A DNA stretch of 32,321 nt, from contig JAHBUB010000006.1 in NCBI GenBank assembly GCA_019638285.1, forward strand, positions 108,219-140,539, read 5' to 3'. The number at the start of each line of letters is the position of its first letter. Within the stretch, counting starts at the first letter, position 1. Positions 1-32,321 of this stretch are shown here, piece by piece. The notes under the pieces were generated by a model. It saw only the letters and a program-made list of their open reading frames with translations. It was not told the origin of the DNA and made no database searches. The translations under genes and the position numbers were made by a program. The stretch is from Cyclobacteriaceae bacterium (GTDB lineage Bacteria > Bacteroidota > Bacteroidia > Cytophagales > Cyclobacteriaceae).

Positions 1-1126
1 CCATTTTTACAACGGCATCTGCTTTTGGTACTTTCAGAATATCCCTCAATCCTTTGTAATCAATAATACCAATACCCACAGTTATTAATATGCCTGCCAA
101 TACGGACAATGGTATCTCAGCTGCATACTTTCCTAAACCCAGCAAGACAACTAATAAAAACAATCCGTGAACAACTCCAGAAATTCTAGTTCGGCCACCT
201 GATTTTACATTTACTACAGTCCGCATTGTTGCTCCTGCTCCTGGTATACCACCGATCAAAGCGGCCACCATATTACCAAGACCCTGCCCTATCAATTCCC
301 TGTTGCTGTTGTGCTTTGTCTTTGTAATGTTGTCGGCCACTACTGAAGTAAGTAGTGAATCAATAGAACCCAGTGCCGCAAGTGTAATAGCCGGTACGAG
401 TATCAACCCGATGCTGGACATATTCAGTACGCTAAATATGTCAAAATTCAGATGGGGCAATCCCTCCGGAATATCCCCAATCCTCGGAATATCCATAGTC
501 ACAAATTGTGGGATCAAAGACACCGTAATAAGAGCGACCAATGTACTGGGAACCAACTTAGTTATGCGCGGAAATAGATAAATGATTGCAATAGTGAGAA
601 GCCCCAACAAAAATGCAGGCCAATTCATATTCTGAAGTGGTGTCATTATGCTGACGAATACCTCAGAAATTTTATTAGGGGATGTATGGCCTACCAACGG
701 AAAGAGCTGCAAAAAAATAATAATTAATCCAATCCCACTCATAAATCCCGATACAACCGGGTAAGGAATGAATTGCACCAATTTGCCAATCTGGGTAAGG
801 CCGAAAACAATTTGTAACAAGCCTCCCATAAAAAAAGTAAGTAATACCAGCGTCAGGCCTACTTCGAGGTTGGGTGCTTGTTGCATAAGTGTGGCCGCTA
901 CTAAAGAAGACACCACAGTCATTGGTCCGGTTGGGCCGCTTATCTGAGTTTTTGTTCCACCGAAAATGGCAGCCACAATTCCGATAGCTATGGCTCCGTA
1001 TAAACCTGCTTCCGCACCCAAACCCGATTGAATTCCAAAGGCCATGGCCAGTGGGAGCGCCACAATTCCTGCGGTAACACCGCCAAATAGATCACCTTTT
1101 ATTGTTCTTGTATCAAGTAACTTCAT
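1..1126 (-). CDS. SulP family inorganic anion transporter (partial, cut by left edge)
   Basis: The frame is open from ATG at 1126 to the window edge, giving 375 complete codons; the C-terminus and any STAS domain lie outside. The protein begins MKLLDTRTIKGDLFGGVTAG and has the SulP core: PLAMAFGIQSGLGAEAGLYG, a GGTKTQISGPTGPM segment near residue 60 (the conserved anion-site region), and many hydrophobic helices. A later IPGAGATMRTVVNVKSGGRT stretch matches the conserved SulP signature before the last transmembrane helices. The family moves sulfate, bicarbonate or other anions across the inner membrane, driven by Na+ or H+; the substrate cannot be told from this fragment. It follows a small minus-strand hypothetical gene, with two hairpins in the gap. 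The family call is strong and the substrate unknown. Confidence 0.93.
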   Translation of the reverse strand, partial: MKLLDTRTIKGDLFGGVTAGIVALPLAMAFGIQSGLGAEAGLYGAIAIGIVAAIFGGTKTQISGPTGPMTVVSSLVAATLMQQAPNLEVGLTLVLLTFFMGGLLQIVFGLTQIGKLVQFIPYPVVSGFMSGIGLIIIFLQLFPLVGHTSPNKISEVFVSIMTPLQNMNWPAFLLGLLTIAIIYLFPRITKLVPSTLVALITVSLIPQFVTMDIPRIGDIPEGLPHLNFDIFSVLNMSSIGLILVPAITLAALGSIDSLLTSVVADNITKTKHNSNRELIGQGLGNMVAALIGGIPGAGATMRTVVNVKSGGRTRISGVVHGLFLLVVLLGLGKYAAEIPLSVLAGILITVGIGIIDYKGLRDILKVPKADAVVKM

Positions 1127-1263: not shown

Positions 1264-1614
1264 TTATCCTTTAGGAGGGGGTGAAGTAATTCCCTTTTGA
1301 AAGGGTGCGTAGGTTTCAATGTGAAATGCTAATGGGACGGTATACAACTCAAGGCTAAAGTTCATTTCATTCAATAAATCCTTTGCGCTGTCATCATCAT
1401 CCTCAACAAGCAACCTTGAATTAACACCTCTTGTTTTTTTGTTAGAGTCATTCGAACTATCAGTCTTATTATCATCTGATAAGAACATTACTATTTCTTC
1501 CTGTGAAACTTCAATGGGAGGGGTTTGCTTAACCATGAAATAAAAGCCAAAAACCAGCGCAAAGGCATAAATAAATGCCCCAGCGGTTAGAACTTTATGG
1601 ATTTTCAATTTCAT
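1264..1614 (-). CDS. Hypothetical membrane-anchored protein
   Basis: This is a 116-residue protein starting at ATG 1614 (MKLKIHKVLTAG). An in-frame TTG three codons upstream was not used because the ATG gives a standard N-terminus. Residues about 8-28 form one hydrophobic segment, either an uncleaved signal anchor or a signal peptide. The remainder is polar and acidic, with a D/N/S/K-rich stretch and a run of four aspartates, then a hydrophobic patch and a proline-rich end (TSPPPKG). I recognise no family. A TATATTTG box lies six bases before the ATG, so its mRNA may have almost no leader. The next gene downstream is the SulP transporter, but two hairpins separate them. The coding call rests on the start context, the anchor and the lack of a competing frame. 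Confidence 0.6.
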   Translation of the reverse strand: MKLKIHKVLTAGAFIYAFALVFGFYFMVKQTPPIEVSQEEIVMFLSDDNKTDSSNDSNKKTRGVNSRLLVEDDDDSAKDLLNEMNFSLELYTVPLAFHIETYAPFQKGITSPPPKG

Positions 1615-1620
1615 GGATTG

Positions 1621-1628
1621 CAAATATA
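1621..1628 (-). promoter_or_regulatory. Candidate Bacteroidota -7 box (TATATTTG) six bases before the ATG at 1614
   Basis: TATATTTG matches TAnnTTTG exactly and is followed by CAATCC and then ATG. No good TTTG -33 element is seen at 19-21 bp; CTGG lies near that position. If used, transcription would start at or near the start codon. Confidence 0.35.
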
Positions 1629-1850
1629 CAAATTTTGAATTTAGCCAGTGGTCGTTTTTTCATCCTCCCGACTTTCGTCTAAAATTTGTTATTACAAATA
1701 TTACAATGAAGCAGCATTTCCGTAGCATTCATTTCGCCTCAAAAGGGGGCATTTGTTGAAGAAAGCTCTCTGCCCTAGCTATAATTAGCATAGCTGCTTT
1801 TTCATTTAACGGGTTCTTTTTAATGGTTAAGTTTTATTTCTTTATTTATT

Positions 1851-4568
1851 TTAAAAGGCTTCACTAAACGTAAAGAAAACCCCATTCTGATCTTTGGCAA
1901 TTCCATAGTCAAGTCGAAGTTTAATATTCTGACTCATTGCGAAACGAATACCCGCCCCATAAGTATATTTTGGTTTGATGAAATCGTCATCAGTTACATC
2001 GCCCACATCTAGAAATGTCACCCCTGAAAATCTCTTATAAACTGGCAAGCGGGCTTCCAGTTGACCAACATAGTACTTTTCGCCACGAAACCTGTTGGAA
2101 TAATATCCGCGCAAAGCATACGAACCTCCCAGGGTGTAACGAAACAAATAACTCGGAGTGCCTTGTGAAAATCCCGCAGCAAGGCGTGATGCAATCACAA
2201 AGTTGGAATTAATGACATATCGAAAATATCGGATCTCTGCATCTATCTGCAGGGCCTCTCCAAGGCCTGGGGCATTGAGTGCTGAAGGAATGTATAGAAA
2301 AGTGATTTGCCTTAATGCTCCTTTTTTTGTGCTGAAGGTGTTATCGCGCGTATCTTGCTTAATGGCAAGCCCTATGCCTACAGGGTTTTCATCCGGGAAA
2401 AATCGTTGATTCAGTTCAACATCGCTCTCATTAGTTGCTTTTGTTTCCCTTCTTCCGCGAGCGTCACCAAAGGCAACAATTTGAAATTTATTTCTTAGAA
2501 TAAATGCGATTTCGGGTCTTACTCTGTAGGTATTGGAAAACAATTTGGTGTAGTCCTCCGCTATGGTTTTGCTTCCTTCCCCAAAATAGTATTGAAAGAA
2601 GTTTGAATAGGAACCGTAAAGATTAAGATTTACATTTCTAAACAGATTAAAATAGGCGTAGCTTGATTGGAAATTTATCTTCCCACCGGAAATAACCTGG
2701 AGTTGAGCATCAAAATATCGACCCGGTATTTTTAATGGAAAATTAAAATAGGCACCCCCGAAAATCATTCCTAAGGCAGGATCATAACCTATTATTGGTG
2801 CAATGGTATAGTCGGTTGGGCTTACTTTAATTGTCTTTAGCGTATCTTCCTCATTGACATTTCTGCTAAGGTCAAACACCAATTCTCCGTCAACATAAGT
2901 TTGGGAAACCTTTGCATTATATAGTGTAAAAGGATCATCTAAAAGTAGAGGTGCTTGCATCACTACAAAGTCAGCATAATAGCCTGGTGCGATTTTTCCA
3001 ATTTTCTTATCTTCATTCAATACATAAGCACCATTTGAAGTATACGCTTCAATGGCTTCGTTAATCGTCAATGTTTTATCGACAATACCCTCCATCAATT
3101 CCCCGTTAGGGTATCGCCCAGTAACATTTACAGCCATATTCGGAAAAGGATTAAGTCCATCTACTTGGGCATAGTCAGTAAACAAGGTATCCATACCATA
3201 AGGATAGTCACTCGTCAGAGCTCCTTTTACGAGTTGATACTTTACTCGTGCATCGAGCAAATCATTTTCTTTAAAAAGCTGGTCGCCAGATGAATGAATC
3301 TTATAAAATGAAGACAGGTTTTTGTAATCAAACAGTTGACTTGCAATTATGGTAACGCCAATTCGAAGGTCGGCAGCTTCTTGTATTTGTTGAACGGACG
3401 AATACCCTGCATGGTCAACCACATGCCGCTTATTCAGTGATGTTTTATTGTTTGCGTGTAAGGTGTTCAATATATTTTGAAGTCCTTCTTTCCCCTGAAC
3501 GTGAAATGCAAAAGTACTGGTAGGGTTAAGCTGAAATATGTCTTTCAATTGTTTTTCACTTAGAAATACTTTCCCACCCGGCTTAACTGCTTCATGTTGG
3601 TGGCCGGAATAAGATAGGGACTGATCCTCAAAAAACTTCATAGCGTGGTATTTTACATGGGATTCATCAACTCCTTTGCCAATGAAGCCCAAGTGTTTCT
3701 TGCCTACTCCCCTCATCAATCCTTCTGTTTGTGGAATACGACCATAGCTTCTTGCTCTCACCCGAACTTTGAGCACGCCATTATTTTGAAGCCCTTGATA
3801 TATCTTAAAGTAGTAGGGATTGAAGGTATTATCTCCAACAGTAGTGATGCCATAGCTAAGCACTTTTGACTGCATAATAGCAATTGCCCTTTGAATGGTT
3901 TCATTGGAATAAGCCGATCCAATAAGGCGGTTGGCTTCCATAGAAGCACCCTCCAGTAGTAGCCCCGTTAAGTTTCCTGCAGCATCCTTTTGCAGGGTTC
4001 CGTCAGTGATGGTAGTGTTCTTATCAAATCCCAGTTTTTTCAACGCTGCACTATTGATTATTGCGGCATGCCCACTCTTTAGAAAAATGATTGTTGGGGT
4101 TTCAGGCATTAGTTCATCTAAAAGTTTGAGTGGATTTGGAGTTTCTTTTAATGGCTCGTTTCCCAGGTTTCGCCCGATGTACATCCCATCCAGCAATTCA
4201 GTTTTTGTTACATTTATTTTTTCAACCAGTTTGGCTTTATCATTGATACCGGAAAAATTAACTTGAAGTAAACCCAGTCCACCATCTATAAAGTGTATGT
4301 GACTGTCTACAATACCAGGTATCACTATTTTTGATTGAAAATCTATTTGAATGGGATAATTTTTTAAATCCAACTCGCTCAAACTATTTCCTGTTTTTGT
4401 AATAAGTCCGTTTTCTACTACAAAATAAGAGGCTTCTGTTAACGAACTATCACAAGTAAAAATTTTACCATTATAATAAAGAGTGGTTTGTGCAGAGGCT
4501 ATGGTAGACCCAAATAGGGCCATGAGAAGATAAACAGCTTTCACTTGTATGATATTATTGGTATCCAT
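1851..4568 (-). CDS. Exported amidohydrolase (YtcJ-like, amidohydrolase family 3) fused to a C-terminal Omp85/BamA-type beta-barrel
   Basis: The 905-residue protein starts at ATG 4568 and has a signal peptide ending near ASAQ (residue 26). Residues about 27-570 are a complete amidohydrolase: the HIH metal motif at H90/H92, K311 in a KFFEDQSL motif (the VKIFxDGSL position of YtcJ-like enzymes), H356 in FAFHVQG, H386 in VVDHAG, D453 in LTSDYP, and the usual C-terminal IGKIAPGYYADFVV. These enzymes hydrolyse C-N bonds; the substrate is unknown. Residues about 585-905 are an outer-membrane barrel of the bacterial surface antigen type: YDPALGMIFGGAYFNFPL opening, LRGYYSNRFRGEKY at 819-832 equivalent to the Omp85 VRGF/Y loop, FLDVGDV near 852, and a terminal Phe. 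No POTRA domain is evident between them. The frame is continuous with no break. The enzyme is probably tethered at the outer membrane; which face it sits on is unknown. Confidence 0.92.
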   Translation of the reverse strand: MDTNNIIQVKAVYLLMALFGSTIASAQTTLYYNGKIFTCDSSLTEASYFVVENGLITKTGNSLSELDLKNYPIQIDFQSKIVIPGIVDSHIHFIDGGLGLLQVNFSGINDKAKLVEKINVTKTELLDGMYIGRNLGNEPLKETPNPLKLLDELMPETPTIIFLKSGHAAIINSAALKKLGFDKNTTITDGTLQKDAAGNLTGLLLEGASMEANRLIGSAYSNETIQRAIAIMQSKVLSYGITTVGDNTFNPYYFKIYQGLQNNGVLKVRVRARSYGRIPQTEGLMRGVGKKHLGFIGKGVDESHVKYHAMKFFEDQSLSYSGHQHEAVKPGGKVFLSEKQLKDIFQLNPTSTFAFHVQGKEGLQNILNTLHANNKTSLNKRHVVDHAGYSSVQQIQEAADLRIGVTIIASQLFDYKNLSSFYKIHSSGDQLFKENDLLDARVKYQLVKGALTSDYPYGMDTLFTDYAQVDGLNPFPNMAVNVTGRYPNGELMEGIVDKTLTINEAIEAYTSNGAYVLNEDKKIGKIAPGYYADFVVMQAPLLLDDPFTLYNAKVSQTYVDGELVFDLSRNVNEEDTLKTIKVSPTDYTIAPIIGYDPALGMIFGGAYFNFPLKIPGRYFDAQLQVISGGKINFQSSYAYFNLFRNVNLNLYGSYSNFFQYYFGEGSKTIAEDYTKLFSNTYRVRPEIAFILRNKFQIVAFGDARGRRETKATNESDVELNQRFFPDENPVGIGLAIKQDTRDNTFSTKKGALRQITFLYIPSALNAPGLGEALQIDAEIRYFRYVINSNFVIASRLAAGFSQGTPSYLFRYTLGGSYALRGYYSNRFRGEKYYVGQLEARLPVYKRFSGVTFLDVGDVTDDDFIKPKYTYGAGIRFAMSQNIKLRLDYGIAKDQNGVFFTFSEAF

Positions 4569-4741: not shown

Positions 4742-6508
4742 CTACTCCCTTGGAATAACCGGCAAAACGATTTTTGAAGGATACTTATTTGAGTGATGAA
4801 TTGTATTCACGGCAGGCATCAAATTTTTCTCAGTGGCAATTTCTGTTCCTGTGTTTGGATTAGGATCATAGTGTGGCGCCTTGCTGCTGGTAATCTGTAT
4901 CCTGATGCGATGGCCTTTTTTAAAAAGATTGGCCGTATAAAGCTGTCCTATTTTAATTTTGTAAACCTCCTCCGGCTTCATCAGCTCCTGCTTTTCAAAT
5001 CCATTCCTATATCGCATTCTTAAATAGCCCGCATCCATTCCGGAAAGGTTGATGGACTTACCATCCGGATAAACATCTGTAAGTGTGATCGCAAAGTCCG
5101 TATCTTTTGCGGAAGAACTTACGAAAAGCTCAGCCACCACTTCCCCTACCACCTTTAGATCATCGACTAAAGGTGATGAAGTATATACAAGCACATCTTT
5201 TCTGCTTTCATTATCTCTTTGATCATAAGGATAGGATTTCTCAAAAGAAATATCCCACAGCGGATTGGATGGATCAAATACATAACTGTCACTTTGTTCT
5301 TGCCCAGGTGTTTGAGCGCTCAGTTTACCATCGGCTTTGTCTATGGTTGTTTTGCCGGTGCTGTGCAAATAAAAATCGGTGGATACCGTCCGGCTAAGCG
5401 GCCATTCATTTTCAGCCATCCATTTATTTTCGCCCATTACAAAAATGCTAACAGGTGGTAATTTGCTTTGATTAGGAATTCCCTTCAATTGTTCATCAAA
5501 CCAATTTAATAACTCAATGTCGTAATCTAAACCGGCCGATTCGTAAAATTCCATTTCTCCAAAATGCGTTTTGCGCGTATTCAATGAGGTGTGATTCCAT
5601 GGCCCCAAAACAAGACGAGAGTTCTTTTTTGCAGTTTCACTTGCTGCCTCTTCGTGCATTTTCCGATAAGCACGTGATGCCCCCTCCGGTCCGTAACCCG
5701 CATCGTACCATCCACTTAAGAGGAGGACTGGAGTCTTAAACTTTTTAAAGTCATCTTCTACATTTACAAAACCCCACCAAGCTGTTTGGTCGGGGTGTTT
5801 AAGCCAGTCGTAGTATTCAGGTGCATATTTCTTAAGAATCGGCAAATCGATTAATGGCCTATACGAATACCATTTTCTCCTGTCACTATTAACCCACTCC
5901 TCTTCTGCCTTTGCATCATCCCAGGTATCGGAGGTATCGTTCGCCTTCTTTCGTTTGTCAGCAAATATGTAAGGCATAAACCAATCTAACCATGGCATAG
6001 AAAACGCACCTCCATAATAAAAAAAGTGGTGACTACTAATGGGTGTCATCTCCGGGGCTGCCGCAGCAAGGTGTGGCGGCATTTGCGACATGGCTAGCCA
6101 TTGTACGATGCCTGGATACGACCCTCCATAAGTTCCAACCTTTCCATTGCAGAAGGTAGAAGTTCCCACCCATTCAATTAAATCGTATCCATCATTCTTT
6201 TCATTTTTGTACGCTACAAATTCTCCTTCACTTCTGTATCGTCCTCTTACATCTACTAAAAAAACTACATAGCCCTGCTTCGCAGCCTTAAGTGGAAACT
6301 CGGCATAACTATCATAATCGTCAACACCATAAGGTGTGCGATATACGATGGCTGGAAATTTGCCTGACTGATCTGGTCGGTAAACAATGGCACCTAATTG
6401 AATACCATCGCGCATTGGAATCATTATTTCTTCACGGACAATATTTTGAGGGTGTTGTGCCTGTAAACCAACAGTGATGAATAATAGGATGGGGAAAATT
6501 TTTCTCAT
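4742..6508 (-). CDS. Secreted CocE/NonD family hydrolase (X-Pro dipeptidyl-peptidase S15-like)
   Basis: The 588-residue protein starts at ATG 6508 (MRKIFPILLFITVGLQAQ), which gives a clean signal peptide; an in-frame TTG seven codons upstream is rejected. The alpha/beta-hydrolase core has the nucleophile motif GGSYPG (Ser about 130), an aspartate in LLSGWYDAGYG (about 269) and a histidine in LGPWNHTS (about 306), completing a Ser-Asp-His triad. The C-terminal third is the jelly-roll domain typical of CocE and S15 enzymes. Members cleave acyl esters or amides, such as cocaine esterase, glutaryl-7-ACA acylase and alpha-amino ester hydrolases; the true substrate here is unknown. It is divergent from the lipoprotein gene at 6689 and lies downstream of nothing on its own strand. 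The family call is firm. Confidence 0.93.
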   Translation of the reverse strand: MRKIFPILLFITVGLQAQHPQNIVREEIMIPMRDGIQLGAIVYRPDQSGKFPAIVYRTPYGVDDYDSYAEFPLKAAKQGYVVFLVDVRGRYRSEGEFVAYKNEKNDGYDLIEWVGTSTFCNGKVGTYGGSYPGIVQWLAMSQMPPHLAAAAPEMTPISSHHFFYYGGAFSMPWLDWFMPYIFADKRKKANDTSDTWDDAKAEEEWVNSDRRKWYSYRPLIDLPILKKYAPEYYDWLKHPDQTAWWGFVNVEDDFKKFKTPVLLLSGWYDAGYGPEGASRAYRKMHEEAASETAKKNSRLVLGPWNHTSLNTRKTHFGEMEFYESAGLDYDIELLNWFDEQLKGIPNQSKLPPVSIFVMGENKWMAENEWPLSRTVSTDFYLHSTGKTTIDKADGKLSAQTPGQEQSDSYVFDPSNPLWDISFEKSYPYDQRDNESRKDVLVYTSSPLVDDLKVVGEVVAELFVSSSAKDTDFAITLTDVYPDGKSINLSGMDAGYLRMRYRNGFEKQELMKPEEVYKIKIGQLYTANLFKKGHRIRIQITSSKAPHYDPNPNTGTEIATEKNLMPAVNTIHHSNKYPSKIVLPVIPRE

Positions 6509-6641
6509 TAAGCGTGTATTTGTGTGCAATTTAATCCATAAAAGAATACGTTCTGAGTTCTTCTGGATTCCCGCTTGTCTCCGGGTTCAGCATGTTATCG
6601 ATTATTTTGGGGTTTTCTTACGAACTATTTGTCATGGGCGA

Positions 6642-7462: not shown

Positions 7463-7502
7463 TAAATCCAGGATTGTTTTTCAATCTTGGATTTAGTTTT
7501 TT
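7463..7502 (+). terminator. Rho-independent terminator after the coiled-coil lipoprotein gene
   Basis: A 14-bp stem with one G-T pair (7463-7476 with 7482-7495, loop of five T) is followed by a run of six T. It ends inside the stop codon of the convergent gene at 7501, so the two genes meet tail to tail at this hairpin. On the minus strand the T-run is poor. Confidence 0.82.
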
Positions 7503-8097
7503 ACTGTGCCATGGTGGCTATCTTACTCAATGGAATAGTGTTGGCCAGTGATTGAATTTCGTTTTCATTGGTGTCCCCCATCTCTATGGTCAGCAATGTG
7601 TTGTTCATGGGAATCTGAAGGGTATATCCCGTCTTCCCAGTAGTTTCGTTTTCATTTTTATTCAACACTGATTTGTACCCCTGTATCTTTACTATTTTCT
7701 GTGTTCCATCTCCAGAATTCCCTATAAAAGGGATAGAGAGTATGGCATTAATAGAACTGATCAAAGGCGAATTGTTAATCACATCAATGCTACCATTGTC
7801 CTGCTCTCCATAAGAACGATGAACGAACAGCCCGGAAGCTACTCCGGAACCACCTGTTACATTATCATCTTTTTCATTATAGCTAGCAGCCCCTAGTTTA
7901 GTTGGAAGTTGCTTCAAAATTTCCTTGCCAATTGCAATGTCCAACTCATGCAGTGCCTGCTGAAGTGCAAACCGTGTGCTCTCCAAATTCCCGGAACTGT
8001 AAGCCGATTTTGCAGAAGAAATATTTTTGTCAAAATCCTGCGCAATGGTTGTCATTGTACAAGCAATTAGAATTATAAAAGTTGATATTGTTTTCAT
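7501..8097 (-). CDS. Exported protein of unknown function, paralogue of the gene just upstream
   Basis: The 198-residue protein starts at ATG 8097 with signal peptide MKTISTFIILIACTMTTIAQ. The mature part starts with a helical segment, AKSAYSSGNLESTRFALQQALHELDIAIGKEIL, that lines up with AQNSYKSGKYGEARYAVQQAMLGVEMEIGNKIL in the gene at 8120-8917. The strand-rich middle and the end (IQSLANTIPLSKI) also align loosely. It lies 22 bp behind its paralogue, so the two are probably one transcript. No catalytic motif is visible. The GNLESTRFALQQAL segment has a TPR-like look. I do not recognise a family; a periplasmic or secreted location is inferred from the signal peptide. Confidence 0.75.
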   Translation of the reverse strand: MKTISTFIILIACTMTTIAQDFDKNISSAKSAYSSGNLESTRFALQQALHELDIAIGKEILKQLPTKLGAASYNEKDDNVTGGSGVASGLFVHRSYGEQDNGSIDVINNSPLISSINAILSIPFIGNSGDGTQKIVKIQGYKSVLNKNENETTGKTGYTLQIPMNNTLLTIEMGDTNENEIQSLANTIPLSKIATMAQ

Positions 8098-8119
8098 TGC
8101 GAGAATAATTTAAAAAATT

Positions 8120-8917
8120 TTATTGTTCACCGAGCTCTGCCTTAATGCTGTCAACATCCACCGCCTCTGCCGCTTTCATCATATCCGATTCACTGGCAAA
8201 GTTTACACCTTCAAAAACTACCAACGAAGACTGTCCAATGGGTACGCTCAATTTATATCCGCTGTCTTCATCGTATTCAATGATGGCCCTGTGTCCTTTT
8301 AATTTAGTTTGTTTCCAGTTTTGTTCTCCTCCCGTACTTTGTGAATACCCTCCGTTTGATAAATACATGTTCACGGCTGTCATCATCATGGAGTTGTTGG
8401 CCACCATCACTCTGAACACTTTGTCATTATTATTATACTCTCTTTCAATGGTAAGGCCGACCCATCCAAATCCTGTACTGGTCACCTTATCTACAGAAGC
8501 ATCTTTTGCCAACCCACTTATCGAACCAGGCAACGAGTTCAATATCTTATTTCCGATTTCCATTTCTACGCCCAGCATGGCTTGTTGTACTGCATAGCGT
8601 GCCTCTCCATATTTTCCGGATTTATACGAGTTTTGCGCGTCAGCAATATTTTGTTGTACATCAGGAGGTGTAGTGATCAACCCTCCCCCTGTAGTATTAC
8701 CTGGGCTGTTTTTGTTGTTTCCCGATGAACTGGGTGCTCCGGAGGTGCCCGAACTATTCGAGTTGCTATCATCTCCCAAGCCGATTTTCTTTTCCAAAGC
8801 CTGCTCTGCCTTCTGGGATGCCTTATTTTTGATTTTATTCAGGATTTGGCCATTGGCTGACATCATCCCTAGGGAAAGGGCCAGACCTATTATTAAGAGA
8901 TGCTTTATGCGTATCAT
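8120..8917 (-). CDS. Exported protein of unknown function with an Asn/Ser/Gly-rich linker
   Basis: The 265-residue protein starts at ATG 8917 with signal peptide MIRIKHLLIIGLALSLGMMSANG. Residues about 48-80 are a low-complexity linker of Ser, Gly, Asn and Pro. The rest begins with a helical block (AQNSYKSGKYGEARYAVQQAM), then alternating strands (FGWVGLTIEREY, FRVMVANNSMMM, YKLSVPIGQSSLVVFEG) and an acidic end. It is the longer paralogue of the next gene, which lacks the linker. The shared layout suggests a tandem duplication. No known domain is recognised. A TAACTTTG -7 box lies about 20 bp before its start and probably drives both genes. Confidence 0.75.
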   Translation of the reverse strand: MIRIKHLLIIGLALSLGMMSANGQILNKIKNKASQKAEQALEKKIGLGDDSNSNSSGTSGAPSSSGNNKNSPGNTTGGGLITTPPDVQQNIADAQNSYKSGKYGEARYAVQQAMLGVEMEIGNKILNSLPGSISGLAKDASVDKVTSTGFGWVGLTIEREYNNNDKVFRVMVANNSMMMTAVNMYLSNGGYSQSTGGEQNWKQTKLKGHRAIIEYDEDSGYKLSVPIGQSSLVVFEGVNFASESDMMKAAEAVDVDSIKAELGEQ

Positions 8918-14390: not shown

Positions 14391-17366
14391 TTAATTATTC
14401 TTCTTTTTCTTCTTCAACAAGTTGTTCAACTTGTCTTGTAATAATTGTTCCACAGGGGCCGTCTTCGTAGTGTCTTTTGCTACTGGTGTTTGATGTGTTG
14501 AGTCTGGCTTATTTCCTTTCAATAGGTTCCCAACAATATCTTTCGGATCCGTACCTTTCAAAGCCTCCGTTACTGCCTCTTTGCCCTTTTCCTGTACAAC
14601 GTTTGTTATGGCCTCTTTCACTTGTTGTTTTTGTTCCTGCATCACTAACTTGGCTTTGGGATCATTATAATTTCCACCCACGCCTATGGTTATCGGTATT
14701 TCGCTGGTAGAATTACTACTGCCAGAGTATTGGTTAAGGAACCCTTGTAACTGACCCCCTAATTTTCCGGCTGGTACATTCATCTTTAATGAATAGTCAA
14801 TACTTCCATCTAGGCCAGTGCTTCCCGCCACTGTAGTTTTATAACTTCCAAACTGTACATCAAAAGGCTTTACACTCAATCTGCCATTATCAATGGAGGC
14901 CGACATCAGTACATCCTTTAAGGTTACTTTATCGCTATCTTCCAACTTTGTAAGTGAGGTAATCCCTGAAACCAATTTTGATTGGGTGAGCGCAGCCTGT
15001 GCCACCTTAATCAATCCTGCTCCGTTTACAGTCGCAAGATTCGGCATCATAGTTGGCAATAATTCACCGCTTATTTTGAAGTCCGTACTGAAATCTCCAT
15101 TCACCAAGCCTGCTATAGGTGCATACGTTTTTACAACAGAGAATGAGCTTGCCGCCTGCTGTATCGCCAACCCTTCAATCTTCAAGTCCATATCATATTT
15201 TGGATGGGCAATGTCTTTTGTATTATAGGTTCCGGTCATCTGGAATTTCCCCCCCAGCATATTGAATTTTAATTCGCGAAGGCTGGCAATGCCATCTTTC
15301 ACAATAATATCGCCTGATGCATTGGTGATGTTGTAATCCATCATTTTCACTGTATTTAGTGAAGAGTGAAGAATGAAATCAATATTTTCCGGTACAGGAA
15401 TAACACCAAAAGGTGCTTCTTCTGTGGCCGGAGTCTGCTCTGATTCTGTCATAAACTCATTCAAGTCTAAAAGATTAGATCTAAAAGTTACATTGCCTTT
15501 GATGGTTTGATTTTTTGAAAACATGTAAGCAATGTAATTGCTCACTGAGCCCTCCATAGAAAAATCACTTTTGCCAATGGTTCCTGCGGTGTTTTTGATC
15601 TCAATTTTACTAGGATCAAAAACCGCCTGTGCCTTGCTGACCGTAACGGCATAGGGCAGATCTTTGGATGAGAACTTAAAGTTTTCCAGTGATGCCGTAC
15701 CACTGGTAGGCAAACGATCGTACTTGCCTGCTTCCACATCAGACATTTTGCCTTTGGTTTGAATGTCTGCAATGACCTTACCTGCCAAAGTCATCCCTTC
15801 AACAGGAAATATTTTCGTCATTTTCTCAAGATCGATAGCGCCATTGGCCTTTATGTCCCAGTTGTAATCATCCAAGTTCTGAATGATCATGTTGGCAACG
15901 AATTTTTCTCCATCCATTAGTAATGAAAGATCCTTGACATTGATAGTTGTCTCTGCCATTTTACCTGAAGTATTTTTTACCGTAGACAAAAATTGCATGT
16001 TTTCAATCGGCAATGGAAACTCGCTTGACTTCACATAGCCATCTCTAAGGGACATGGTTACATCTATCGCGGGAATTATTTTCTTTATGCTATCGTAAAC
16101 ACCATTGGCGGAAGCATCAATAGAAAAGGCTCCCTTCATTTCCAATCCTTCCATGGGAAACATCTTGTTGAGTTCTACCAAATTCAGGCTTGCTTTTACG
16201 TTGCCATTCAGCTTGTAGTTCTTAAGGTTTTCTATTAGAAGTTTAGCGTCTACAGGATTATTGCCAAGCTCCATGTGTAATTTCTTAAGATCTACAATTG
16301 TGTTATCAATCACACCATCCTTATTATCCACAAATAAATCGACATTAATATTTTTAATAGCCGATGGCAGATCAGGATACTTAAACATTCCATCATCAAC
16401 TTTAACTGCCAGATTAAAGGCAGGCATTTGCGTTTCGCTGTAGCTACCCTTTACCATTCCGGTAAAAGCAATGTTTCCGCTAGTCTCTATACTTCCGAAA
16501 TCTTTGGTGTACATGCCCGGCACCAAAGACAATAAACTTTTAAATGTGCTTTCTTCGGTCTCGTAACTGATGTCCATGTCATAGCTATCCTCATTCATTT
16601 TGAACCAGCCATCAAAGGCCAATCCAAAATCATTGAGTTTGGCCACGTTTTTCTTAAAGGTAAATTTGGAATAATCTTCACTTATGCCAAACACCATCTC
16701 TGCAGTAAGTCTCTTGTTGCTAATGTATTCTACACCGTCATAAACTACTGACATCGAATCTGCTTTTGTTTTTGTTCTAAGATCGAACTCCTTCTCATTG
16801 AAGTCACCATTACCTGTATGGTTAAGTCCCGCCATCTTCATAGAAAACGGAATGGATTGGTCATCATATGAAAGATCCCCATCTACTACTTCCCAATAGT
16901 CAATCCCAAATGAAAACTTACTGTCTTCCTCCTTTGCCGCTACGGTATCTGTAGAAGGGTAAGTGATGTCCCAATTGGCCCTTCCATCGGGCAACACTCT
17001 AATATTAATTTGAGGACGAATCAGTGTAATTCCCTTTAGTCTCAATTCATCACCAAACAATAATTCTTTAAGATTTACTTCCACCTCTAGTCGCTCTACT
17101 ACAAAAAGTGGTACGCCCTCAAAGGGGGCCTTATTAAATACCCCTAATTCACTTATCACCGCTGTCACGTTGGGAAAGTTTTTGAACAACGTAAGGTCAA
17201 AATTATCCACATCAAAAATCACGTCTGCATTAACAGAACTGGCTATCTCCTTGTCAATGGCTGCCTTGATATCGTCTTTGAAAACAATAGGGACAATAAT
17301 TGCTGTAGCCACTAAAAGGATAAGAATAATGCCTAACCCAATCAGTACCTTCTTCATGATTTTCAT
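14391..17366 (-). CDS. AsmA family protein
   Basis: The 991-residue protein starts at ATG 17366 (MKIMKKVLIGLG; an ATG three codons later is an equal choice). One membrane segment at about 5-29 anchors it in the inner membrane; the rest is periplasmic. The N-terminal AsmA region has DVDNFDLTLFKNFPNVTAVI, EVEVNLKELLFGDELRLKGI and LPDGRANWDITY. The central part repeats short beta-strand units such as LKNYKLNGNVKASLNLVELN, and the AsmA-like C-terminal domain covers about 650-880 (MLGGKFQMTGTYNTKDIAHP and following). The tail has Gln/Lys-rich helices and ends LLKKKKKNN. AsmA/YhdP/TamB-like proteins form long hydrophobic grooves thought to carry phospholipids to the outer membrane. It lies downstream of the aldehyde dehydrogenase with a 135-bp gap and a candidate -7 box. 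Confidence 0.93.
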   Translation of the reverse strand: MKIMKKVLIGLGIILILLVATAIIVPIVFKDDIKAAIDKEIASSVNADVIFDVDNFDLTLFKNFPNVTAVISELGVFNKAPFEGVPLFVVERLEVEVNLKELLFGDELRLKGITLIRPQINIRVLPDGRANWDITYPSTDTVAAKEEDSKFSFGIDYWEVVDGDLSYDDQSIPFSMKMAGLNHTGNGDFNEKEFDLRTKTKADSMSVVYDGVEYISNKRLTAEMVFGISEDYSKFTFKKNVAKLNDFGLAFDGWFKMNEDSYDMDISYETEESTFKSLLSLVPGMYTKDFGSIETSGNIAFTGMVKGSYSETQMPAFNLAVKVDDGMFKYPDLPSAIKNINVDLFVDNKDGVIDNTIVDLKKLHMELGNNPVDAKLLIENLKNYKLNGNVKASLNLVELNKMFPMEGLEMKGAFSIDASANGVYDSIKKIIPAIDVTMSLRDGYVKSSEFPLPIENMQFLSTVKNTSGKMAETTINVKDLSLLMDGEKFVANMIIQNLDDYNWDIKANGAIDLEKMTKIFPVEGMTLAGKVIADIQTKGKMSDVEAGKYDRLPTSGTASLENFKFSSKDLPYAVTVSKAQAVFDPSKIEIKNTAGTIGKSDFSMEGSVSNYIAYMFSKNQTIKGNVTFRSNLLDLNEFMTESEQTPATEEAPFGVIPVPENIDFILHSSLNTVKMMDYNITNASGDIIVKDGIASLRELKFNMLGGKFQMTGTYNTKDIAHPKYDMDLKIEGLAIQQAASSFSVVKTYAPIAGLVNGDFSTDFKISGELLPTMMPNLATVNGAGLIKVAQAALTQSKLVSGITSLTKLEDSDKVTLKDVLMSASIDNGRLSVKPFDVQFGSYKTTVAGSTGLDGSIDYSLKMNVPAGKLGGQLQGFLNQYSGSSNSTSEIPITIGVGGNYNDPKAKLVMQEQKQQVKEAITNVVQEKGKEAVTEALKGTDPKDIVGNLLKGNKPDSTHQTPVAKDTTKTAPVEQLLQDKLNNLLKKKKKNN

Positions 17367-22027: not shown

Positions 22028-24325
22028 CTATTGCTCCATAGAAGTCTTATTAAAAAGAAGAAAACCTACATGGAGTAAAATGCCCAGTTGGCTTTCGCGA
22101 TCATCATAATAATTAAAACTCAGACTAATTGGCCCCACTGTACTATGATACACCAGACCAGCAGTACCAGTAAAAAATATTTTATTGAATGAATCATCCA
22201 ACACCCCTTCCTGGTTCTGCCCTTTTACAATAGCCTCTAGCGGCTTGAAAAGATATCCTTCAAGCCGAAAGTCCAATTTATTTCTTAAGGCAAATACATT
22301 TCGCCAGCCTCCTGCCACATAATTGTAAGCCCTGAAGTTTTGGAGAAACAATGTTTTACTATCCTGTAAAGGGTAAAAGCCCGGAGCATTAATTAACGAC
22401 CCCTGGTAGTCGACAAAAAGCGGTTGATTAGACAGAACCCCTTCAAAAATATACCCCGAGCTATAGAAGCCAGACTTAAAATATTGCTCAAGAGAAATTC
22501 GGGCCCGTATCCAGGAGTGTCTTTCTTTCAATCCCTGGGTAATCATAGAAGTAGACCCCGGTGTATAATTTTCTGTAACTGAGAACCAATCTGCATTAAA
22601 CGAGTAAGATTTCCCGGCTGAGGCATATTGTTTTTTGTTAAGATTTCCTGTCGTTAGGCTAATTCCGGTTCTGAATCCATTTAGCTTCATGCGATCAAGG
22701 GTATCAATAGAAGTTATAACATCGGTATTGATATACTTATCATCGTTGTTCAGATAGAATCCGTGTAATGAAGCCTTATACTGCCGACCCATAGGGAATC
22801 CGATACTAACACCCACCTTCCTGTCTATACGATCCAGCACCGTGGGCAAAAATTTGTCTACAACAATATCTTTCCCCTCTAAATAATCCCATGAATTGAA
22901 GCTCACTTGCGGTTCAATATAAAATCGTCCAAAGTATGGCAAATCCATTCTGTACTTCACTTCAGCCGATTTCGCAAAACTTCCGGCATAGAAGTTTAAA
23001 CTGGAATGATTAAGCGTGCGATTAAAGTAATAATAATGAAGACCCAAAAACATAGTGCTAATGTTTCTGGTTGCGATCATGCCTCCAAAGTCTATCTGAA
23101 AATTGTTTTGCGGTCTTCGCGACAGCCTAAAATTAAAAATCTTGGCTGCGGTATCGTACACTATCCCTGGGTATACACTCTTAAAGTAATCCTCCGAGAC
23201 AAGTTTATAATATCCTTTCTTAACATCGCTAAAATTGAGTGGTCTTTTTCCGCTTTGAAAAACCTTATTCAAATAATTTCTCTGCTTTGAATTGAATTGA
23301 CTATATTTTACATCTTCAATTACCCAAGGTACGGCCTCACTGTTAAAAATGTTTCGTTTAATTGCAACCGATTCGCAAGTACGCCTATCGGATATCTTTT
23401 TTTTAATCTCTTCTATCTGCCTTAAAGTTTGCTGATACCCGCTGTCAATCATGCTTTTTGCATATCTGAAATCAAATGCCGTATAAGGCTTGAGGCTGGG
23501 TTGAATATAAATTCCATTCTCGGGTACTTCTGCAGGATCTGACTTGTCCAACAACATATAAAGAAGAGATTTTGAAATCAACTTATCATCCTCTCCATAA
23601 GGGTATTCTTCAAACACTTTTGTAGAAACGTTGGATCCAATGATAACCTGCGGGTTAAAATCTCTTTCCATCACATCAATGGGAAAGTTATTGTATACCC
23701 CACCATCAAATAGATATTTATTATCCACTTTTATTGGAAGATAGAAGAAAGGAACGGTTTGCGTAGCGCGTAGTGCATCACTTAATATCCCATTTTTAAA
23801 CACTACGCTCGTTTGCGTAAATATGTCGGCAGCAACTACGCGTAATGGAATAAAAAGGCTGTCAAAGTTATTCTTGGATATGGCCGAGGCTTGTGCAAAC
23901 ATTTCTGCCAATGCAAAGTTGAGAGAAAGGTCGCTTGCAATACTGCTGTTGAGCAAAAATCCGAATGCAGAATCAAGTGAAATATTAAACCGAATAAAAG
24001 AGGGATAATCCTCCTTCTTGCTATATTGGTAGTTGTACCCCTCCTCCAGCTGCCCAGTGATCCAATTCATAAATTCCTTTGACAAGGCAATGTCTTCAAT
24101 CTGTTCAGGGCTCATTCCTGCAGCGTAAGCACCTGCAACAATCCCTCCCATTGAGGTACCTACAATATAGTCAATCGGAATTTCGTTTTCCTCCAGTGCT
24201 TTTAACACGCCAATATGCGCCAGGCCTTTGGCCCCGCCACCACTCAGCACTACTCCCACCTGCTGCGCGCTGGCGCTAAGGGAAATAAAAAATATAATAA
24301 TGAGTATTGAAACAGACCTATTCAT
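22028..24325 (-). CDS. Patatin-like phospholipase fused to Omp85-type barrel (type Vd-like)
   Basis: The 765-residue protein starts at ATG 24325 with signal peptide MNRSVSILIIIFFISLSASA. Residues about 22-310 are a patatin: oxyanion loop SGGGAKG (28-34), nucleophile GTSMGG (S58) and the catalytic Asp in FDGGVYNNFP (D207). Residues about 332-402 form one POTRA domain (VIEDVKYSQFNSKQRNYLNK onward), and about 405-765 an outer-membrane barrel ending in hydrophobic strands (SLSFNYYDDRESQLGILLHV). This is the layout of PlpD/FplA, type Vd secretion proteins whose lipase passenger works at or beyond the outer membrane on phospholipids. It is the classical counterpart of the amidohydrolase-barrel fusion at 1851-4568. 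The catalytic dyad is intact. Confidence 0.95.
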   Translation of the reverse strand: MNRSVSILIIIFFISLSASAQQVGVVLSGGGAKGLAHIGVLKALEENEIPIDYIVGTSMGGIVAGAYAAGMSPEQIEDIALSKEFMNWITGQLEEGYNYQYSKKEDYPSFIRFNISLDSAFGFLLNSSIASDLSLNFALAEMFAQASAISKNNFDSLFIPLRVVAADIFTQTSVVFKNGILSDALRATQTVPFFYLPIKVDNKYLFDGGVYNNFPIDVMERDFNPQVIIGSNVSTKVFEEYPYGEDDKLISKSLLYMLLDKSDPAEVPENGIYIQPSLKPYTAFDFRYAKSMIDSGYQQTLRQIEEIKKKISDRRTCESVAIKRNIFNSEAVPWVIEDVKYSQFNSKQRNYLNKVFQSGKRPLNFSDVKKGYYKLVSEDYFKSVYPGIVYDTAAKIFNFRLSRRPQNNFQIDFGGMIATRNISTMFLGLHYYYFNRTLNHSSLNFYAGSFAKSAEVKYRMDLPYFGRFYIEPQVSFNSWDYLEGKDIVVDKFLPTVLDRIDRKVGVSIGFPMGRQYKASLHGFYLNNDDKYINTDVITSIDTLDRMKLNGFRTGISLTTGNLNKKQYASAGKSYSFNADWFSVTENYTPGSTSMITQGLKERHSWIRARISLEQYFKSGFYSSGYIFEGVLSNQPLFVDYQGSLINAPGFYPLQDSKTLFLQNFRAYNYVAGGWRNVFALRNKLDFRLEGYLFKPLEAIVKGQNQEGVLDDSFNKIFFTGTAGLVYHSTVGPISLSFNYYDDRESQLGILLHVGFLLFNKTSMEQ

Positions 24326-31736: not shown

Positions 31737-31770
31737 CAAAGAGCAGTGCTTTGCACTGCTCTTTGTTTTT
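31737..31770 (+). terminator. Strong rho-independent terminator after the SPOR-like gene
   Basis: A perfect 13-bp stem (31737-31749 with 31753-31765, loop TTT) is followed by five T residues (31766-31770). It lies 21 bp after the stop and separates this gene from the next one, whose -7 box follows 20 bp later. Confidence 0.92.
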
Positions 31771-31789
31771 AGAGAATTCATCTATCATG

Positions 31790-31797
31790 TACCTTTG
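31790..31797 (+). promoter_or_regulatory. Candidate -7 box (TACCTTTG) four bases before the glycine-rich gene ATG
   Basis: TACCTTTG is an exact TAnnTTTG match followed by CAAA and ATG 31802. TTTG at 31762-31765, part of the terminator stem, is 24 bp upstream, a little long for a -33 element. If active, the mRNA would have almost no leader. Confidence 0.42.
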
Positions 31798-31801
31798 CAA
31801 A

Positions 31802-32321
31802 ATGAGGCTTCTCCTCTTTATTTTCATTTTTTCCTCCTTTTTCTGCTATTCTCAAGTCAGAATGGAGAAGTTAGTAATTCCATCAGGAGAATCTTTCGAA
31901 CTTGTTGGATCAGATATAATCGTGGTAGACACCCTCATAATGGAAAATGCCTCTAAAATAATTCTGAATCGAAAGAAAGCCGATAATTTCATTCATGCTA
32001 AAGTGATTCAGGTTGGCAGCAACTGTATGATCATCGGCAATGGATTGAATGGAGCAGATGGTGAAAGGGGACTTGGGGGGTATACTGCAACGGGACCCTG
32101 TAAAGATGGTATTCCTGGTCGAAACGGAACACCCGGAACTATGGGGACTGACGGGGTAAATCTTTATATTTACTTTAATCAACTTACAGTCGTAGGAAAA
32201 TTAATTATTGACCTCAGTGGAGGGAATGGAGGAGATGGGGGAAAGGGTGGAACTGGAGGAGGTGGAAGTCCAGGAACACGACTTTGTGCAGGAGGGGATG
32301 GGGGTGCAGGGGGGGATGGTT
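31802..32321 (+). CDS. Exported glycine-rich, partly collagen-like protein (partial, cut by right edge)
   Basis: The frame is open from ATG 31802 to the window end, giving 173 codons, and is cut by the edge. It starts with signal peptide MRLLLFIFIFSSFFCYSQ. Residues about 20-80 are strand-rich (KLVIPSGESFELVGSDIIVV, ASKIILNRKKADNFIHAKVI) and read like a right-handed beta-helix or adhesin-type cap. Then come Gly-X-Y triplets (GIPGRNGTPGTMGTDG), an ordinary strand segment (LYIYFNQLTVVGKLIIDLSG) and a Gly-Gly-X stretch (GGNGGDGGKGGTGGGG). I recognise no named family. It is probably a surface or extracellular structural protein. Glycine codons make this the most GC-rich part of the window. The full length and any C-terminal sorting domain are not visible. 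Confidence 0.85.
   Translation, partial: MRLLLFIFIFSSFFCYSQVRMEKLVIPSGESFELVGSDIIVVDTLIMENASKIILNRKKADNFIHAKVIQVGSNCMIIGNGLNGADGERGLGGYTATGPCKDGIPGRNGTPGTMGTDGVNLYIYFNQLTVVGKLIIDLSGGNGGDGGKGGTGGGGSPGTRLCAGGDGGAGGDG

Follow-up and report, generated by a model that had tools for sequence, protein, structure and literature searches.

The 32,321-nucleotide stretch of contig JAHBUB010000006.1 analyzed here (referred to as the window; assembly GCA_019638285.1 of a Cyclobacteriaceae bacterium, positions 108,219 to 140,539) contains on its minus strand a gene (1851..4568) that is read from 4568 to 1851 as a single uninterrupted frame of 905 codons plus stop and that encodes a signal peptide, an amidohydrolase, a linker and an Omp85-type barrel. 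The signal peptide (4488..4568, residues 1-27), called by eye and from hydrophobicity, features the core VYLLMALFGSTI and the end ASA-Q; a GTG at codon 9 may be the real start of the gene. It is followed by an Amidohydro_3/YtcJ-like enzyme domain (2868..4487, residues 28-567), a linker of about 20 residues (2808..2867, residues 568-587) and the barrel (1854..2807, residues 588-905), all on the minus strand, the barrel ending in a C-terminal phenylalanine and carrying an LRGY motif (2103..2114, minus strand, residues 819-822) between strands 11 and 12. A first-pass annotation made from the letters alone had already proposed one unbroken frame combining signal peptide, amidohydrolase and barrel, and this is confirmed by the 905-codon frame together with three intact homologs from other genomes (L001, L037 and L187). 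The same annotation had asked whether the halves occur elsewhere only as separate genes with a stop between them; instead, the three further genes are fused as well and carry no such stop. The fusion is thus real, one polypeptide joining the enzyme to the barrel.

In a Pfam scan, residues 75-565 of the fusion protein match PF07969 (Amidohydro_3) with 161.2 bits against a cut-off of 29.7 (E 7.8e-47), and the L001, L037 and L187 proteins likewise exceed this cut-off. The stand-alone relatives of the enzyme are YtcJ-like proteins of 504-597 residues. For comparison with the fused copies we used 67 of them, obtained from 77 matches after removal of ten (the three fused genes, two window pieces, L064 and L065, whose extensions are spurious, L066, which contains N, the fragment L077 and L007, a weak match). 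The metal ligands H90, H92, K311, H356, H386 and D454 are each conserved in 67/67 of the aligned stand-alone relatives and H167 in 65/67, and all seven residues are retained in 4/4 fused copies. The six ligands listed in the first-pass annotation are therefore all present, with the correction that its aspartate was off by one, the ligand being D454 and not D453. The corresponding six residues have been reported as individually essential in mutants of BwBSH1, an enzyme aligned with Pfam07969 and COG1574 members that hydrolyzes N-acyl taurines, taurine-conjugated bile salts among them, and for which carboxylation of the lysine, a trait of the family alongside two metal ions, was predicted; an additional histidine close to the amide was also essential (PMC13081902), and H167 would be its counterpart. 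Against this conserved background, 19 positions at which at least 75% of the stand-alone enzymes share one residue are uniformly changed in the three fused copies compared (window, L001 and L037), amongst them G484 for arginine (67/67 stand-alones), D385 for glutamate (65/67), Q358 for isoleucine (65/67) and Y457 for valine (64/67). To judge from these substitutions, the fused clade may have a substrate of its own, or a changed activity.

The C-terminal half displays what characterizes the Omp85 superfamily: its barrel has 16 strands, and the RGY motif lies in loop 6. Curated models miss the fused barrel: PF01103 and PF19143 gave no match to it in the Pfam scan, and the NCBIfam model NF047779 (Omp85 family) matches with 68.2 bits (E 9.3e-19), under its cut-off of 200. 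The assignment therefore draws on the fold, the motif and the relatives, which together uphold the Omp85 barrel with LRGY loop motif and terminal phenylalanine of the first-pass annotation. These relatives are 60 stand-alone barrels of 321-412 residues, drawn from the family, order, class and phylum to which the window belongs (67 matches minus the three fused genes, two window pieces and two weak fragments). All nine that were scanned exceed the PF01103 cut-off and none of the nine has a POTRA match in Pfam, and in 44/60 the matched barrel begins after no more than 73 residues. They fit the 'noNterm' Omp85 proteins described by Heinz and Lithgow (PMC4104836). A POTRA domain was likewise not matched in any of the four fused proteins (Pfam), as had been suspected earlier, and the linker is too short to hold one. 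Omp85-type barrels are altogether abundant in the window's family: among the NF047779 matches listed for its 118 genomes, frame lengths fall mainly at about 370-430, 445-540 and 1120-1350 residues, a large and varied stock. In four further proteins of the family (L160, L161, L162 and L163; frames of 645-864 residues), such a barrel stands after an N-terminal part without Pfam match, with a GDWDRHxDQWRWA motif in L160 and L163; these are possibly other fusions or kin of the PF00149 type.

The three other fused copies are 890-896 residues long and 49-60% identical to that of the window. L001 (892 residues, 60%) and L187 (genome G1380, 890 residues, 49%) come from the window's genus, and L037 (genome G472, 896 residues, 49%) from another genus of its family. 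Amongst the four, pairwise identity is 44-60%. Within the linker, conservation is low in the first half, and the second half (KxSPxDY) is identical in the window, L001 and L037 and different in L187. We determined the frequency of fused copies in several genome samples, which overlap, so that the counts are not additive. The window's own genome is the only carrier found in the phylum (1/395), order (1/390) and class (1/295) samples, where for most genomes at most two, two and three candidates, respectively, were scored among the matches listed; since the E-value set the order of the matches, any fused copy should have come first. In the family sample 2/118 genomes carry the fusion (the window's own and G472), in a second sample of the same family 2/245 (that of L001 and G472), in the genus of G472 1/7, and in the window's genus 3/62 (the window's own, that of L001 and G1380). 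A scan of genome contigs for short exact peptides, which may skip records near the window, returned L001 alone. Three long open frames were rejected as further fusions: those in G964 and G905 are ordinary enzymes whose frame continues upstream in GC-rich DNA, and that in G1107 runs into a stretch of N. Conservation in many Bacteroidota genomes, which the first-pass annotation had named as supporting evidence, was thus not seen, carriers being few in these samples and all from one family.

Trees were built for each half from the fused rows together with the 67 stand-alone enzymes or the 60 stand-alone barrels, L187 being added only to the four-row trees and to the conservation check across all four copies. 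In both halves the fused rows form one clade with support 100, with three fused rows and again with four, which argues for one fusion event. The branching amongst the fused copies differs by half, the enzyme joining the window to L001 (support 97) and the barrel joining L001 to L187 (support 86), a conflict that could reflect recombination or noise. In the three pairs compared, four-fold degenerate sites are 24-31% identical, which is near chance, while the proteins are 49-60% identical, indicating that the chain has been kept by selection over a long time. The fused gene would thus have originated once, when a YtcJ-like enzyme gene joined a 'noNterm' barrel gene of the stand-alone kind, most likely in a single Bacteroidota family; it has probably moved between genomes since then. 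The window fusion is real, rare and of single origin.

The genomic surroundings bear on this spread. All neighbors lie on the minus strand: on one side a CocE/NonD hydrolase of the S15 family (4742..6529), and on the other, as the next downstream gene, that of a small protein of 116-119 residues (1264..1623), with same-place relatives in L182 (74%) and L183 (26%), followed by a SulP-type sulfate permease (2..1126) that runs off the window. In two congeners (G1383, L182; G1375, L183) the gene order around CocE is the same as in the window, except at the fusion site, which is occupied by a further CocE gene in tandem (sharing 71% and 65% identity, respectively, with the CocE of the window), followed by the 116-residue gene and the sulfate permease. 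Two further congeners were compared, of which L184 matches part of one side only and L185 nothing past CocE. Directly downstream of the window fusion lies a degraded scrap of a DUF1569 gene (1683..1742, minus strand), 77% identical in DNA over 61 columns to the intact gene, identified as DUF1569 by Pfam, that stands downstream of the L001 fusion. In the window, tblastn detects the scrap with an E-value of 2e-8 and a score of 42.7 bits; shuffling the gap 500 times never gave more than 21.9 bits. No DUF1569 was found near the L037 or L187 fusion. The tandem CocE at this site in congeners and the DUF1569 scrap together indicate that the fusion was probably acquired horizontally. It seems to have arrived with part of its former neighborhood and to have replaced the second CocE gene. 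GC composition gives no sign of transfer (fusion 39.4%, window 40.9%), and no remnants of the L001 upstream context were found in the window. On this reading, the window shows one step in the spread of a gene: a rare fused gene at the site of a tandem copy, with the scrap of a former neighbor still attached. Upstream of the fusion in L001 (3643-4521) and L187 (3-917) lies a LytTR-type regulator, 51% identical between the two over 286 residues (the Pfam assignment is that of the L001 copy), which could possibly control the fusion; searches of the window, of the flank upstream of it and of the L037 stretch found none.

As to what the protein does, sequence and model establish a signal peptide, the full set of metal ligands, an Omp85-type barrel and a single conserved polypeptide. 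In barrels of this kind the N-terminal domain usually lies on the periplasmic side. A 16-strand barrel has its two ends in the periplasm, and with so short a linker the enzyme is expected to stay at the inner face of the outer membrane. We therefore consider it reasonably probable that the fusion is a secreted YtcJ-type amide hydrolase permanently anchored to the outer membrane, on its periplasmic side, through a C-terminal POTRA-less Omp85-type barrel. The protein would be exported by Sec, its enzyme domain would fold in the periplasm and the barrel would be inserted by BAM, tethering the enzyme at the inner face of the membrane, where it would hydrolyze amide bonds of substrates entering through, or residing in, the outer membrane. 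Several points weigh against this interpretation. Location, activity and substrate rest on inference; the fused barrel falls below every curated sequence cut-off; the rarity of the fusion is consistent with a dispensable function; and some of the changes particular to the fused clade adjoin ligands, so that activity could be altered. The best available analogy is inexact, PlpD having a POTRA domain and the window protein none. Confidence of the AlphaFold2 model, whose input alignment had 67 enzyme rows displaced into barrel columns after about residue 311, is also poor at residues 407-617, a region that takes in the end of the enzyme including D454, the linker and strands 1-2; the model therefore gives no prediction of how the two domains lie relative to each other, and a run from three sequences only reached a pLDDT of 34.5. 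A comparison with the PDB returned no enzyme-barrel fusion among the 50 matches listed, to which we attach no weight as evidence.

The signal peptide and the C-terminal barrel would also suit a protein displayed at the surface, the reading originally put forward for type Vd proteins, in which the barrel conducts the enzyme out of the cell and the enzyme then remains tethered or is released by cleavage. Earlier reports on PlpD did place the passenger outside (PMC4104836, PMC6555100), and the first-pass annotation had the enzyme perhaps acting outside the cell. In a re-examination from 2024, however, the patatin domain of PlpD was reported to be retained in the periplasm, with a proposed role in outer-membrane lipid balance (PMC11116518). 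In addition, no POTRA was found in the fused proteins, the enzyme domain of about 540 residues would need to pass unfolded through an Omp85 pore, and it is tethered by a linker of only about 20 residues, all of which makes surface display unlikely. Cleavage after export, yielding a free periplasmic enzyme and a separate 'noNterm'-type barrel with a job of its own, would agree with the poor conservation of the first linker half and with the occurrence of both halves elsewhere as separate genes; yet the fusion has been retained without a stop between the halves in four genomes at 44-60% pairwise identity, and we regard this explanation, too, as having little in its favor.

It is also conceivable that the enzyme domain is non-catalytic and serves as a periplasmic docking domain that replaces the POTRA of an assembly or transport barrel. 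'noNterm' barrels have been suggested to work in assembly (PMC4104836), and several otherwise conserved enzyme residues are altered in the fused clade, but the retention of the six metal ligands and H167 in every fused copy renders this improbable. That a sequencing or assembly error joined two genes is practically excluded, and was rejected, given the intact fused copies L001, L037 and L187.

For a periplasmic, membrane-anchored hydrolase, the leading guess as to the substrate would be amide-linked lipids or N-acyl amino acids. Some Bacteroidota have been reported to make amide-linked lipids of ornithine or glycine, and such aminolipids can occupy both membranes (PMC11631085), which makes them an attractive candidate substrate. 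A more specific version, in which the barrel holds a binuclear metalloenzyme at the inner leaflet of the outer membrane to strip ornithine or glycine lipids of their N-acyl chain, thereby remodeling the membrane, must be regarded as a long shot. If true, it would be the amide counterpart of the supposed action of PlpD on phospholipids.

Elsewhere in the window, 17 kb from the fusion, a 765-residue protein (22028-24325, minus strand) with a signal-like start, as judged by eye, carries a patatin domain (Pfam, residues 25-218) and a long C-terminal part that matches no Pfam family; it is perhaps a candidate PlpD-like patatin-Omp85 protein. Two adjacent proteins of 198 and 265 residues (7501-8917, minus strand), alike by eye and without Pfam match, have counterparts in the congeners L182 and L183. 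The window further encodes an AsmA-family protein of 991 residues (14391-17366, minus strand) and, at its end, a frame with glycine-rich, collagen-like stretches that runs off the window (31751-32320, plus strand).

In comparison with known systems, the layout of the fusion resembles that of the type Vd proteins PlpD and FplA, which carry a signal peptide, an N-terminal hydrolase and a C-terminal 16-strand Omp85 barrel on one chain. The hydrolase of these proteins is, however, a Ser-Asp patatin lipase rather than an Amidohydro_3 metalloenzyme, and they have one POTRA (PMC6555100). The likeness to type Vd put forward in the first-pass annotation goes no further than this layout, as the fusion protein has neither a patatin (Pfam) nor a POTRA match and only about 20 residues lie between its domains. 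The YtcJ/Amidohydro_3 hydrolases (PF07969, COG1574; for example 3ICJ, 3IGH and the metalloBSH BwBSH1) share fold and ligand set with the fusion enzyme (PMC13081902) but carry no barrel, whereas in the window the enzyme and an outer-membrane barrel make up one protein. The 'noNterm' barrels (NCBIfam NF047779) are the POTRA-less stand-alone kin of the C-terminal half; they lack an enzyme domain, and the 567-residue N-terminal part of the fusion sets it apart from them. In the 'Metallo' subfamily of Heinz and Lithgow (2014), a metal-dependent enzyme family likewise precedes an Omp85 barrel, although the enzyme is a calcineurin-like phosphoesterase (PF00149, which has no Pfam match in the fusion protein) instead of an amidohydrolase. 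In their survey this subfamily is not among the clusters with predicted POTRA domains, and its barrels are related to the 'noNterm' barrels (PMC4104836). A protein of this type, with PF00149 followed by a barrel, occurs in the window's family (L165; 1316 residues compared with 905 for the fusion), so that an enzyme ahead of a POTRA-less Omp85 barrel has precedent. The claim of a new enzyme class on the barrel platform holds in part: the enzyme-Omp85 fusions described in the sources consulted are those with patatin, which include a POTRA, and the PF00149 'Metallo' proteins (PMC4104836, PMC6555100). No amidohydrolase-Omp85 fusion was found in the literature searched, which covered few subscription journals, and other domain databases may list one; in the relevant passage of the one paper naming both Omp85 and amidohydrolase, on Myxococcus, the latter is a separate table entry. 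The window fusion adds to patatin and PF00149 a third enzyme class ahead of an Omp85 barrel, a putative metal-dependent amide hydrolase, without POTRA. Together with the periplasmic patatin of PlpD, it suggests that such barrels serve to anchor periplasmic enzymes rather than to form pores for secretion, and a fusion protein as clear-cut as this one makes the question testable. Should the version with ornithine or glycine lipids as substrates prove true, the Omp85 barrel would be a general enzyme-anchoring platform able to take up a patatin, a phosphoesterase or an amidohydrolase.
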